From positions 1 through 64,000 of the forward strand of contig ONJJ01000007.1 of NCBI GenBank assembly GCA_900318115.1: a stretch of DNA of 64,000 nt, read 5' to 3'. Position 1 is the first letter of the stretch. Each line of letters opens with the position of its first letter. Shown here piece by piece: positions 59,434-61,643 of the stretch. The notes beneath the pieces were generated by a model. It had not been told where the DNA came from and did no database searches. It saw only the letters and a list, made by a program, of their open reading frames with translations. This DNA comes from an uncultured Prevotellaceae bacterium. GTDB lineage: Bacteria; Bacteroidota; Bacteroidia; Bacteroidales; Bacteroidaceae. Both the position numbers and the translations under genes were made by a program.

Positions 59434-59913
59434 ATGAAACATCAAATCAACGACCTCCAATCCCTCCCCGCAATAGCCCGCGACTTCGTCGCCTCCACCT
59501 CCCTGCTCCCCTCTTCCTCTGAGGCCACCCCCTCCGGGCGCTCTCAGGCTCCCTCCTCTCGCATCTTCGCCTTCTATGGCAAGATGGGCGCCGGCAAGAC
59601 CACCTTCATCACTGCCGTCTGCCGTGAGCTCGGAGTCACCGAGCCCGTGACCTCGCCCACCTTCGCCATCGTCAACGAATACCAATCGTCCCCCACCGGG
59701 GGACTACTGGGGGCTTCTATCTACCACTTCGACTTCTATCGCATCCGCCGTCCTGAAGAAGCCTATGACATCGGCTTCGAGGACTACCTCGACAGCGGTG
59801 CCCCCTGCTTCATTGAGTGGCCGGAACTCATCGAGGACCTCCTCCCTGCCGACACCATCCGTGTCACCATCGACGAAGATCCCGAGACACACCAGCGCAC
59901 CATCAGCTGGTGA
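59434..59913 (+). CDS. tsaE: tRNA threonylcarbamoyladenosine biosynthesis ATPase TsaE
   Basis: The 159-residue protein has Walker A ([12 protein letters not shown], about 50-61), then [22 protein letters not shown] and [13 protein letters not shown], all typical of TsaE. It acts with TsaB and TsaD in the t6A37 modification of tRNA. Two low-complexity stretches look inserted compared with the usual family: Ser/Pro-rich residues about 21-42 ([20 protein letters not shown]) and [11 protein letters not shown] (about 88-98), the latter encoded by a palindrome (59688-59704). Confidence 0.9.
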
Positions 59914-59922
59914 GGGGATTCC

Positions 59923-59984
59923 CCGGCTCTTCCTCGAATGGCAGCCCTGTTTCCAACGGTTCGTCCGTTGGATTATCACCCGCC
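59923..59984. repeat. 62-bp terminal inverted repeat, left copy
   Basis: The 62 bp match the inverted sequence 61267-61328 with two mismatches. The core palindrome CCAACGG-TTCGT-CCGTTGG (59953-59971) forms a 7-bp stem. It lies ten bases after the tsaE stop and 17 bases before the end of the transposase-like gene. Confidence 0.9.
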
Positions 59985-60000
59985 GGCGGGAGTAGAACTC

Positions 60001-61350
60001 TTAGGCACTACTGAGAATCCGGCAGATGGCATTCAGTAGCTCGAAACGTCCTTTGTTGGAATGCTGTGAGAGGGGTTGATCCGGCCAGGGAGCCAGCAGC
60101 AGGAGCTGGCCGTTGGCCACATAAGTGAGGTGATTGCCGGCAGGAGCGTAAAGAGCAGACATCGCCTCATGCTGCAAGCGGATTACGCGATGTCCAGCTG
60201 CCAGCAGGCTATTGACCACTTGCTGCTCTCCCCGGCTGACGCACGGCGTGATGACCACAGCCCCTTCCTTGGAACAACGGTCGTCCAGTGAGGCGATGAG
60301 GGCGGCAATTTCTGCCGGGGTGGCGCGGCGCGACACACGCACCGGCACCAATGTACTCTCGGAAACCAGGAAGTAATTGCCCATGGCGCGGAATCGCAGA
60401 CTCGTGTGCACTTCATCGCTGCTGCGGTCTACCACCAGGCACGACTCAAGGTCCTTGATTTCCCCCAGCGACCTGGCCTCACGGTAGAGCGCACGTGCCA
60501 ACTCCACCGGCAGAGGCCAGTTCACAGTCCACTTATCATAGAAGAGGCGAGGATGCTGCCGCTTGATCCATGCACGCCGCGGGTTGTCCGCCACATAATT
60601 CAGCATCTTCGTCAGCTGCCCATACTCCGTCAGCACCCGGTCGTGGTAATTATCCTGCCACAATCGTTGCACAAAGATCTCTTCCCCCTCCCTTCCTCGT
60701 TCCATCCCCTGGCTTTCCCCAGTTGTCTCCTCCCTTCCTCGTTCCATCCCCAGGCTTCCCCCTGTTGTTTCCTCCCTTTCGGATCCTCTTCCCCCGCTTT
60801 TCCCCTCGCTTCCCCCTGTTGTCTGCGGTTCGTCCGCAGACCACCACCTCCTCCTCTCCCTCTCCCTCTTTGATGGGCGGCTGCCTTCAATGCGGTGCAG
60901 CCCTCCTTCGGCCTGATCCAGTATCCTCAGATATGCCACCGTGCTCTCATATTTCAGCCGTCGCACGACCTCGCCCAGATGCCTGTCCATCTTCTGGTGG
61001 ATCTGAACCACGGCGTGCAGGTGATCCGGCATGATGATCCAGCGGGAAAACTCCACTTCCGCATATCTTCTGCTCAACCCCTGCATCACCCGTTCTAGCT
61101 CCTTGCCCAGAGGGCTGAGGCTCACCGATGCAGAACCAGCCCCGTCGGACACCAGCTGCCCGAATAGTGGGCGCCGTCCTTCGGTGCACAAGGTAATCAT
61201 ATACACCCCTGGTTCATAGTAGTTGTGCCATGTGGCGCGCAGTGTCTGAGGGCGAGAGTGGTCCTGGGCGGGTGATAACCCAACGGACGAACCGTTGGAA
61301 ACAGGGCTGCCATTCGAGGAAGAACCGGCGGGAGGAAGAGATGGATGCAT
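60001..61350 (-). CDS. REP-associated (RAYT-like) HUH transposase with extra C-terminal domain
   Basis: The 449-residue protein has the Y1/IS200-like domain: WHNYYEPGVYMITLCTEGRR (about 41-60), HUH motif H110-L-H112 in MPDHLHAVV, and QRLWQDNYHDRVL with candidate catalytic Tyr235. Residues 160-225 are a charged repetitive linker (GREETTGGSLGMER repeated, 42-bp units). The C-terminal ~150 residues (AVVITPCVSRGEQQVVNSLL, LLLLAPWP) look like a DprA/SLOG-type Rossmann domain. The first ~30 residues are encoded by the right inverted repeat. The only ATG is at 61350. Whether the protein is active is not known. Confidence 0.8.
   Translation of the reverse strand: MHPSLPPAGSSSNGSPVSNGSSVGLSPAQDHSRPQTLRATWHNYYEPGVYMITLCTEGRRPLFGQLVSDGAGSASVSLSPLGKELERVMQGLSRRYAEVEFSRWIIMPDHLHAVVQIHQKMDRHLGEVVRRLKYESTVAYLRILDQAEGGLHRIEGSRPSKRERERRRWWSADEPQTTGGSEGKSGGRGSEREETTGGSLGMERGREETTGESQGMERGREGEEIFVQRLWQDNYHDRVLTEYGQLTKMLNYVADNPRRAWIKRQHPRLFYDKWTVNWPLPVELARALYREARSLGEIKDLESCLVVDRSSDEVHTSLRFRAMGNYFLVSESTLVPVRVSRRATPAEIAALIASLDDRCSKEGAVVITPCVSRGEQQVVNSLLAAGHRVIRLQHEAMSALYAPAGNHLTYVANGQLLLLAPWPDQPLSQHSNKGRFELLNAICRILSSA
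60688..60813. repeat. 42-bp tandem repeats inside the transposase-like gene
   Basis: Units beginning CTCCCTTCCTCGTTCCATCC start at 60688 and 60730, and a degraded third unit begins at 60772. The period is exactly 42 bp (14 codons), so the reading frame is kept. Confidence 0.75.
60821..60841. repeat. Third palindrome with the same TTCGT loop
   Basis: An 8-bp stem, GTCTGCGG with its complement CCGCAGAC, encloses TTCGT, the same loop as the terminal palindromes, and is preceded by the same CCCCTGTT-like context. Confidence 0.7.
61267..61328. repeat. 62-bp terminal inverted repeat, right copy
   Basis: Inverted match of 59923-59984. Its palindrome CCAACGG-ACGAA-CCGTTGG is at 61280-61298. It overlaps the 5' coding end of the transposase-like gene (codons about 8-28). 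Confidence 0.9.
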
Positions 61351-61460: not shown

Positions 61461-61643
61461 TTATTCCTCGAAGATGCTTTCGCCGAAGAAGTTGCCTTCC
61501 TTGACGTCGGCCACCTCGGGGATTTCGCCTGTGCCTTTGCCGATTCCGGAGTTTCCGCCTACGCCAGTGATGCTGGCGGCAATCATCGTTTCCGTCTGTA
61601 CGTGGTGCACATACAGTGCAGGAGTCATATATGACTTTTTCAT
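61461..61643 (-). CDS. 60-residue peptide of unknown function
   Basis: The peptide begins MKKSYMTPALYVHHVQTETM and continues IAASITGVGGNSGIGKG, ending acidic (FFGESIFEE). The MKKxYMxPxL ... ExMxAxS pattern resembles small orphan proteins common in Prevotella whose function is not known. It has a double-Gly motif (GVGG) at about 27-30, as in leader peptides, but no maturation genes are seen nearby. It lies 90 bp downstream of the large exported protein, probably on the same transcript. Confidence 0.6.
   Translation of the reverse strand: MKKSYMTPALYVHHVQTETMIAASITGVGGNSGIGKGTGEIPEVADVKEGNFFGESIFEE

Follow-up and report, generated by a model that had tools for sequence, protein, structure and literature searches.

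REP-like hairpins around a RAYT-type gene of an uncultured Prevotellaceae bacterium and their in-frame copies within genes of related genomes

The closest described relatives of the locus reported here are the REPtrons of RAYT (REP-associated tyrosine transposase) subclass 2.4, which are found in Bacteroidetes, encode a HuH/Y1 protein and carry REP-like hairpins, some adjoining the gene and others lying in frame between its HuH and Tyr motifs, REPs in frame within the gene being a feature of this subclass (PMC6006769). In TIRtrons a RAYT-like gene is enclosed by long inverted repeats, some of them overlapping its 5′ end, and intragenic GTAG and CGTC REPs, including RPE-4 and RPE-6 of Rickettsia, are short in-frame palindromes in unrelated genes, where linkers or loops probably tolerate such REPs and RPEs (PMC3733652). 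PARCEL is also a mobile palindromic coding sequence (PMC2996958). These properties recur in the locus studied here or in the family of its hairpins. The locus lies in a 64,000-nt stretch of contig ONJJ01000007.1 (assembly GCA_900318115.1; hereafter, the window, and G000 for its source genome). A sequence-only reading of the window had suggested that the element may be one not described in Bacteroidales and had called the overlap of its repeat with the 5′ coding end unusual, and neither view agrees with these reports, in which RAYTs with in-frame REPs (subclass 2.4) are abundant in Bacteroidetes (PMC6006769) and repeats over the 5′ ends of RAYT genes are already on record (PMC3733652). We consider it probable that the window holds a resident RAYT, a single-strand nuclease, together with REP-like hairpins that serve as its substrates and that have intragenic, linker-coding copies in one species group.

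The RAYT gene and the 62-bp repeat pair

The gene at 60001..61350 on the minus strand encodes a RAYT-type HuH/Y1 protein of 449 aa and is, by sequence comparison, a homologue of the REP-associated tyrosine transposases. Its ORF matched the NCBIfam model NF047646 (REP_Tyr_transpos) with an E value of 6.5e-14 and 52 bits, under the curated cut-off of 80, and the Pfam model Y1_Tnp with 21.2 bits, short of the cut-off of 23. In an alignment of four sequences, the HuH residues H110-L-H112 (codons at 61015..61023, minus strand) and Tyr235 (60646..60648, minus strand; in NYHDRVL), which we take from knowledge of the family to be the catalytic residue, were identified, with H110, H112 and Y235 unchanged in all four; the motif MP[DN]HxH was present in 30 of 31 homologue loci. 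The sequence-only reading had called this a HuH/Y1 gene of RAYT type and had proposed conservation of the HuH histidines in homologues as a check, and on both points it was right: the two histidines are invariant (4/4), and palindromes adjoin the gene and sit inside it. The HuH and Tyr halves are separated by a variable low-complexity linker (60679..60840, minus strand), as seen from the ORF translation and the alignment. Among named genomes, relatives of the protein are found in RUG11694 (79–83%), RGIG6733 from sheep rumen (63%) and RGIG3623 from goat rumen (55%), all of which are Bacteroidales or Bacteroidaceae MAGs; the prefix RUG presumably stands for rumen uncultured genomes.

A C-terminal domain (60004..60414, minus strand; from BLAST and alignment) is common to most RAYT homologues examined, as it was matched by BLAST in 24 of 31 RAYT loci, and 21 sequences were aligned. 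Its profile weakly matched three DprA chains in the PDB (E 0.002, 48 positions). No DprA match for the domain was found in Pfam or NCBIfam, and a Foldseek search with a C-terminal AlphaFold model (four sequences, pLDDT 55) returned no fold match at E ≤0.001, this model being, like that of the full protein (four sequences, pLDDT 44), too poor. PMC6006769 does not mention DprA in its main text. A RAYT fused to a DprA-like domain would, if real, be of interest, and we treat it as a lead only. Separately, at least eight further RAYT-like paralogues (L081-L088; 26–45% identity in matched pieces) were noted in G000 on contigs C43, C55, C10, C42 (two), C30, C20 and C26; many of their linkers contain short tandem repeats, and several of the genes have hairpins of different sequence within or close to them. 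In the vicinity of one RAYT-like gene (L035, C26:50473-52600), the hairpin GGGCATAC-CCCCGT-GTATGCCC occurs in several copies, and the arrangement has the look of a conventional REPtron. A 60-aa protein (MKKSYMTPAL...) encoded at 61461-61643 of the window recurs near RAYTs in G094, G106, G120, G111 and, weakly, G098, and has a second copy in the same region of G000.

The inverted 62-nt arms that had been described around the gene were confirmed at 59923..59984 (plus strand) and 61267..61328 (minus strand): they are 97% complementary with two mismatches, lie 1282 nt apart and both contain the palindrome CCAACGG-TTCGT-CCGTTGG, whose stem is 8 bp in the downstream copy and 7 bp in the copy within the 5′ end of the gene. 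The downstream arm is located between the stop codons of the RAYT gene and tsaE (59434..59913, plus strand), and its hairpin (hairpin 1, 59952..59972, plus strand) has an 8-bp stem and a TTCGT loop, TCCAACGG-TTCGT-CCGTTGGA. In the other arm, hairpin 3 (61279..61299, minus strand) is in frame in the 5′ coding end, where it encodes PVSNGSSVG, and its outermost pair is mismatched. The core CGGTTCGTCCG occurs three times in the window (0.06 expected; three reached in 0 of 100 shuffles), the third copy, beyond the two described earlier, being hairpin 2 (60821..60841, plus strand; GTCTGCGG-TTCGT-CCGCAGAC), which lies mid-gene in the linker of the RAYT ORF, opposite to the gene, so that the gene strand reads SADEPQT. 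Hairpins with arms of at least 7 and a TNNGT loop were found within the RAYT ORF in 8 of 10 homologue loci examined; in one locus (L126) the stem of the copy is mispaired, and a more distant one (L129) has hairpins with 3-nt loops only.

Near-identical inverted arms that flank a gene could be the terminal inverted repeats of an autonomous transposon, the whole of which the RAYT would move, and inverted repeats flanking RAYT genes are in print (PMC3733652). The self-contained element with 62-bp terminal repeats envisaged by the sequence-only reading did not withstand comparison with RUG11694 (G043; L148), the closest relative found. There the RAYT is at the same place, its neighbours tsaE and a gene for a pglZ-like response regulator are kept, and the repeat in the 5′ coding end is shared (92% over 53 nt), but the downstream 62-bp copy is absent from the orthologous place beside the RAYT; palindromes of the family, which flank the gene in the window, are thus present only on its 5′ side and inside it. 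Also against a transposon, the full-length unit occurs at only two places in G000, its four further matches in that genome spanning 14–25 nt. In addition, G111 and G098 also have the RAYT next to tsaE, there with both genes in one orientation (convergent in G000 and G043), and such adjacency in G000 and in three further genomes with RAYTs of 42–79% identity speaks for long residence rather than for a hopping unit. A transposon bounded by terminal inverted repeats was rejected because the downstream arm is not conserved with the gene, and we regard movement of the whole unit as very unlikely. From the sequence comparison, a local inverted duplication of an intragenic copy best accounts for the pair, the downstream arm having probably arisen in the lineage of the window, since RUG11694 is without it; alternatively, that arm may have been lost in RUG11694. 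By eye, positions 1-310 of L148, directly upstream of the RUG11694 RAYT, look like the 3′-terminal part of an IS transposase gene.

The dispersed hairpin family and its stems

Genome searches led us to reject the whole 62-bp repeat as a dispersed family; only the hairpin core is dispersed. The possibility raised in the sequence-only reading, that the repeat occurs only in this gene, therefore applies to the 62-bp unit, which is confined to the locus (two places), and not to the core, and the expectation of palindromes beside the RAYT with solitary copies elsewhere was correct. The family is a 21-nt hairpin with the tag YYCNGTK, an 8-bp stem and a TTCGT loop. Among 101 unique hairpins with a stem of at least 6 bp, collected by a search anchored on the DNA tag and core, the loop is TTCGT in 77, TCCGT in 15, TACGT in 7 and TGCGT in 2. 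The foot at the hairpin base is GT[AG]G, as in canonical REPs, in 30 of the 101, GTTG in 31 and of other sequence in 40, and CGTC spans loop and stem here, vs the unpaired end position that defines CGTC REPs and RPEs. Plain counting of the 9-mer GGTTCGTCC in G000 was uninformative by itself (45 matches vs 61 for the reversed control); measurement of stem lengths separated the 45 sites into 32 background sites with arms of 2–4 bp and 13 elements, 12 of which have arms of 7–9 bp. The thirteenth pairs over 3 bp uninterrupted, in an ORF that, as read from its sequence, presumably resembles the N-terminal part of grpE.

The strict pattern CCTGTN6CGGTTCGTCCG was present in 7 of 121 genomes of the genus, in all of which the control gave 0 matches. 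Among 301 genomes of the family, it was found in 3 of 22 from this genus, and outside the genus (279 genomes, 29 genera) there was a single match in each of two genomes, not above the control. At least three matches to the looser pattern GTKN5CGGTNCGTCCG were present in all 10 genomes that have a close RAYT (E ≤2.4e-36) and in 5/111 others (control: at least three matches in 3/121), the threshold and the RAYT cut-off both having been set after the lists were seen; the next genome by RAYT match, G048 (E 6.0e-31), has no looser-pattern matches. Two carriers are weak (G055 with 5 matches vs 3 in the control, and G120 with 3). The five genomes without a close RAYT are G010 (25 matches), G088 (22), G116 (11), G019 (3) and G067 (3), of which G010, G088 and G116 carry the family in assemblies that are 82–88% complete; G116 has distant RAYTs only (best E 4.9e-17). 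Such element-rich genomes, together with the distant RAYT-like paralogues of G000 (at least eight), would agree with movement of the hairpins by another RAYT paralogue or by a host process, with the window gene as merely one more host. We hold this to be unlikely in view of the presence of the family in every close-RAYT genome and of such hairpins inside the RAYT gene in 8/10 loci, and the close RAYT itself would be the probable mover.

The stems covary. Among 110 unique copies, stem position 7 is paired in 100 (28.3 expected), with all four pair types, position 8 in 99 (44.0 expected) and position 9 in 10 (28.0 expected), so pairing ends sharply. When read in their common phase, the copies encode V-x-G-G-S-S-A-x′, and in 89/110 copies codon x′ is the reverse complement of codon x (mean 21.3 and maximum 33 in 2000 permutations), to a like extent in coding (68/80) and uncalled copies (18/21). 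The inner stem and the TTCGT loop are nearly fixed; the outer stem must pair and allows many sequences. This is the pattern that a substrate recognised by its tag, loop and paired stem would show. Two TnpAREP proteins, from Stenotrophomonas and Marinomonas, are reported to require these elements and to tolerate, or even benefit from, sequence change low in the stem, which fits the covariation; in this they differ from TnpAREP of E. coli, which requires a bulged stem (PMC8266576).

Copies within genes: strand, codon phase and hosts

Coding frames were called by the codon usage of the long ORFs of the window, over ∼300 nt on each side of the hairpin with the element itself excluded. A coding frame was called confidently for 80 of the 101 hairpins, the other 21 being noncoding or uncertain, and 73 of the 80 lie on the coding strand in phase 2; two are in same-strand phase 0, one in same-strand phase 1, two in opposite-strand phase 1 and two in opposite-strand phase 2. 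At one in six, the chance of at least 73 of 80 is 1.4e-48 when copies are treated as independent, which is imperfect, as some sites, such as those in the GT2 and M49 genes, are common to several species. Phase-2 copies number 24/26 in G018, 17/20 in G043, 9/15 in G000, 7/10 in G111, 6/11 in G094, 3/7 in G106, 2/2 in both G055 and G075, and 0/5 in G098, and hairpins lie mostly within genes in G018, G043 and G111 and less strongly so in G000 and G094. The three copies in the window were scored as uncertain because the RAYT gene scores low.

Matches that entered the frame table were 18/18 from G000, 27/28 from G018, 25/26 from G043, 14/16 from G094, 13/14 from G111, 7/12 from G106, 4/5 from G055, 5/27 from G098 and 2/8 from G075, as well as 3/11 from G116 and 2/4 from G120 (these two genomes inferred from the order of loci). 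Five matches in conserved genes that by eye are chance (L161, L167, L208, L224 and L225) were dropped from the tallies of covariation, frames, loops and feet, of which L208 and L224 are common-phase hairpins of 7–8 bp; their inclusion would give 75/82 instead of 73/80, and the tally before dropping was 103 hairpins with 75 in phase. L148-L150 were excluded because they duplicate contigs of G043, G094 and G018. Later reads, outside the 101, covered 23/27 matches in G098, two more in G106, 20/22 in G088 and 24/25 in G010.

Stop-codon avoidance was rejected as the cause of the phase, as each of the six element frames is free of stops in at least 86/101 copies. Codon usage was rejected as well, since hairpin-less GGTTCGTCC sites favour opposite-strand phase 1 (18/32) and are in same-strand phase 2 in only 2/32. 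The same preference of the background 9-mer for another frame bears on convergence at the protein level, according to which GGSSA linkers would be favoured as peptides and the palindrome would merely reflect codon usage. As a flexible linker the peptide is typical, and many hosts have Ser/Pro-rich loops; however, the complementarity of the flanking codons and the existence of extragenic copies with a closely similar tag and core make this explanation exceedingly improbable.

A check proposed in the sequence-only reading was for many solitary copies in intergenic sites. Solitary copies are not mainly intergenic in G018, G043 and G111 and, less clearly, in G000 and G094, although most lie outside called coding frames in three other genomes. 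Of 21 hairpins read in G098, a genome with a close RAYT, 19 are outside a called coding frame, one is in phase 2 and one is in a conserved gene; most copies have one of two stems, GTGCGCCGCGGTCCGTCCG and GTGTGCCG.... In G010, 18/24 are uncalled and two are in phase 2, and in G088, where stems vary, 14/20 are uncalled and 4/20 are in phase 2 (2/16 with a stem of at least 6). Predictions made beforehand failed for G088, expected to have copies coding in phase 2 (4/20), and held for G010, expected to have mostly noncoding ones (18/24). These counter-examples indicate that the intragenic habit characterises a part of the family and does not go with variable stems. The copies of G098 (L311-L328) and those of G010 (L392-L411; dominant stem GTGTATGGCGGTTCGTCCG) are mostly extragenic sister families, with several of the former in close direct pairs.

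Of twenty host proteins scanned against Pfam, 19 had a match, and, as read from their domains, the hosts include threonine synthase (ThrC), RimO, PurL, MetH, a GT2 enzyme, an M49 peptidase, an aldo-keto reductase, an FGGY kinase, a GDP-mannose-dehydratase-like (GMD-like) enzyme, GH43 and NAGLU. Six host proteins were sought in 14 genomes, with 10 to 13 sequences of each aligned, and insert-free orthologues were found for five: GT2, the GMD-like enzyme, RimO, PurL and ThrC. The GT2 enzyme has the insert in G000, G043 and G094 and a short loop in 9/12 sequences (G016, G018, G054, G055, G066, G075, G111, G116 and G120). The GMD-like enzyme of G116 is 10 residues longer than that of G016, and segments of similar length in G075 and G106 may be decayed copies. 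RimO and ThrC have short loops in several species and other Ser/Pro-rich expansions in some. Between G043 and G111 the PurL genes differ by exactly 24 nt, but G111 still has TCGTCCGCC, so this may be a deletion in G111 and not an empty site; PurL of G075 has two related segments at the place of the insert. For the family as a whole, the direction of change would be gain. In MetH, the linker varies in all sequences. Long Ser/Pro-rich loop expansions were also seen in ThrC, RimO and PurL (L278, L281, L282, L285, L274) of G000, G043 and G055; these loops are short in other species, and expansions occur also without a hairpin.

Strand and phase might result from purifying selection only, if insertion took place in all frames and on both strands and only copies with a harmless peptide survived. 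This explanation, which is compatible with the one we favour, has in our view somewhat less than an even chance, and selection alone would be the simplest answer to the narrow question of strand and phase: the common-phase peptide is small and neutral, while the other same-strand frames give RRFVRR or AVRPP. Against it, the opposite-strand frames (ADEPPSTG, GGRTAV) look tolerable, segments of the ADEPQ/ADGPQ type are present in RAYT linkers, and these frames are stop-free in 93–100 of 101 copies, yet hold only 4/80; nor does selection by itself account for the scarcity of uncalled, possibly intergenic copies in G018 and G043. The flanks, analysed for the 70 phase-2 copies with enough sequence, are C-rich on both sides of the hairpin, with CC at codon positions 2-3 in 50–57% of copies at +17, +20, +23 and +26 and in 21–39% at the same codon position from +29 on. 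Cleavage by the Marinomonas protein takes place at CC when its tag is changed to GTGG (PMC8266576). If CC were the target here, NCC codons, with CC at positions 2-3, would fix the phase. The hairpin would then be a protein-decorating element that enters the coding strand at a fixed phase set by a C-rich non-template target, a tentative proposal that we rather doubt. If true, it would mean that a self-complementary Gly-Ser linker has spread through a proteome, with two residues per insert coupled by DNA base pairing.

In the account that we favour, a RAYT acting on its hairpins, the protein most likely cleaves and joins the single-stranded hairpin, and copies would spread via strand transfer. 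In a group of species with the close RAYT, the family sits largely within genes, on the coding strand and in one codon phase, where each copy would be translated as a flexible linker in the often Ser/Pro-rich loops of many enzymes. We propose that intragenic copies survive because V-x-G-G-S-S-A-x′ is harmless in exposed loops, and the phase lock may be caused by selection for this harmless peptide, perhaps aided by cleavage at CC in NCC codons.

Comparison with known REP and RAYT systems

Intragenic REPs and RPEs that keep the reading frame, REPs within RAYT genes and repeats over the 5′ ends of RAYT genes are in print already. In searches of an open-access library, neither this family nor a strand- and phase-locked, mostly intragenic REP family was found. 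The family offers a countable natural record of a bacterial hairpin repeat that is intergenic in some species and intragenic in related ones. With it one can test how strand and phase are set, by the choice of targets by the RAYT or by selection, and whether the inserts are neutral linkers, and it poses the question of how 21 bases can meet the constraints of a DNA hairpin and of a protein together.

When the locus is set beside the systems described above, each differs from it in a defined respect. As described, subclass 2.4 is without a core extension (PMC6006769), whereas the RAYT of the window has a C-terminal domain of ∼135 aa. In contrast to REPtrons, most hairpins are without a GT[AG]G foot, and the dispersed copies in several genomes are mostly intragenic and in one phase. 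TIRtrons differ in that here one arm is missing in the closest relative found, RUG11694, and the repeat holds a dispersed hairpin (PMC3733652). PARCEL forms amphipathic repeat domains, and its description, in the text available, mentions no link with RAYTs (PMC2996958). The REPs of PMC3733652 are mostly intergenic, and the CGTC repeats among them are without a transposase, whereas the present family is RAYT-associated and predominantly intragenic in several genomes. In comparison with the intragenic REPs of the same report, the hairpins here are on one strand and in one phase (PMC3733652), and it is this strand- and phase-locked intragenic habit that looks like the novelty of the family.
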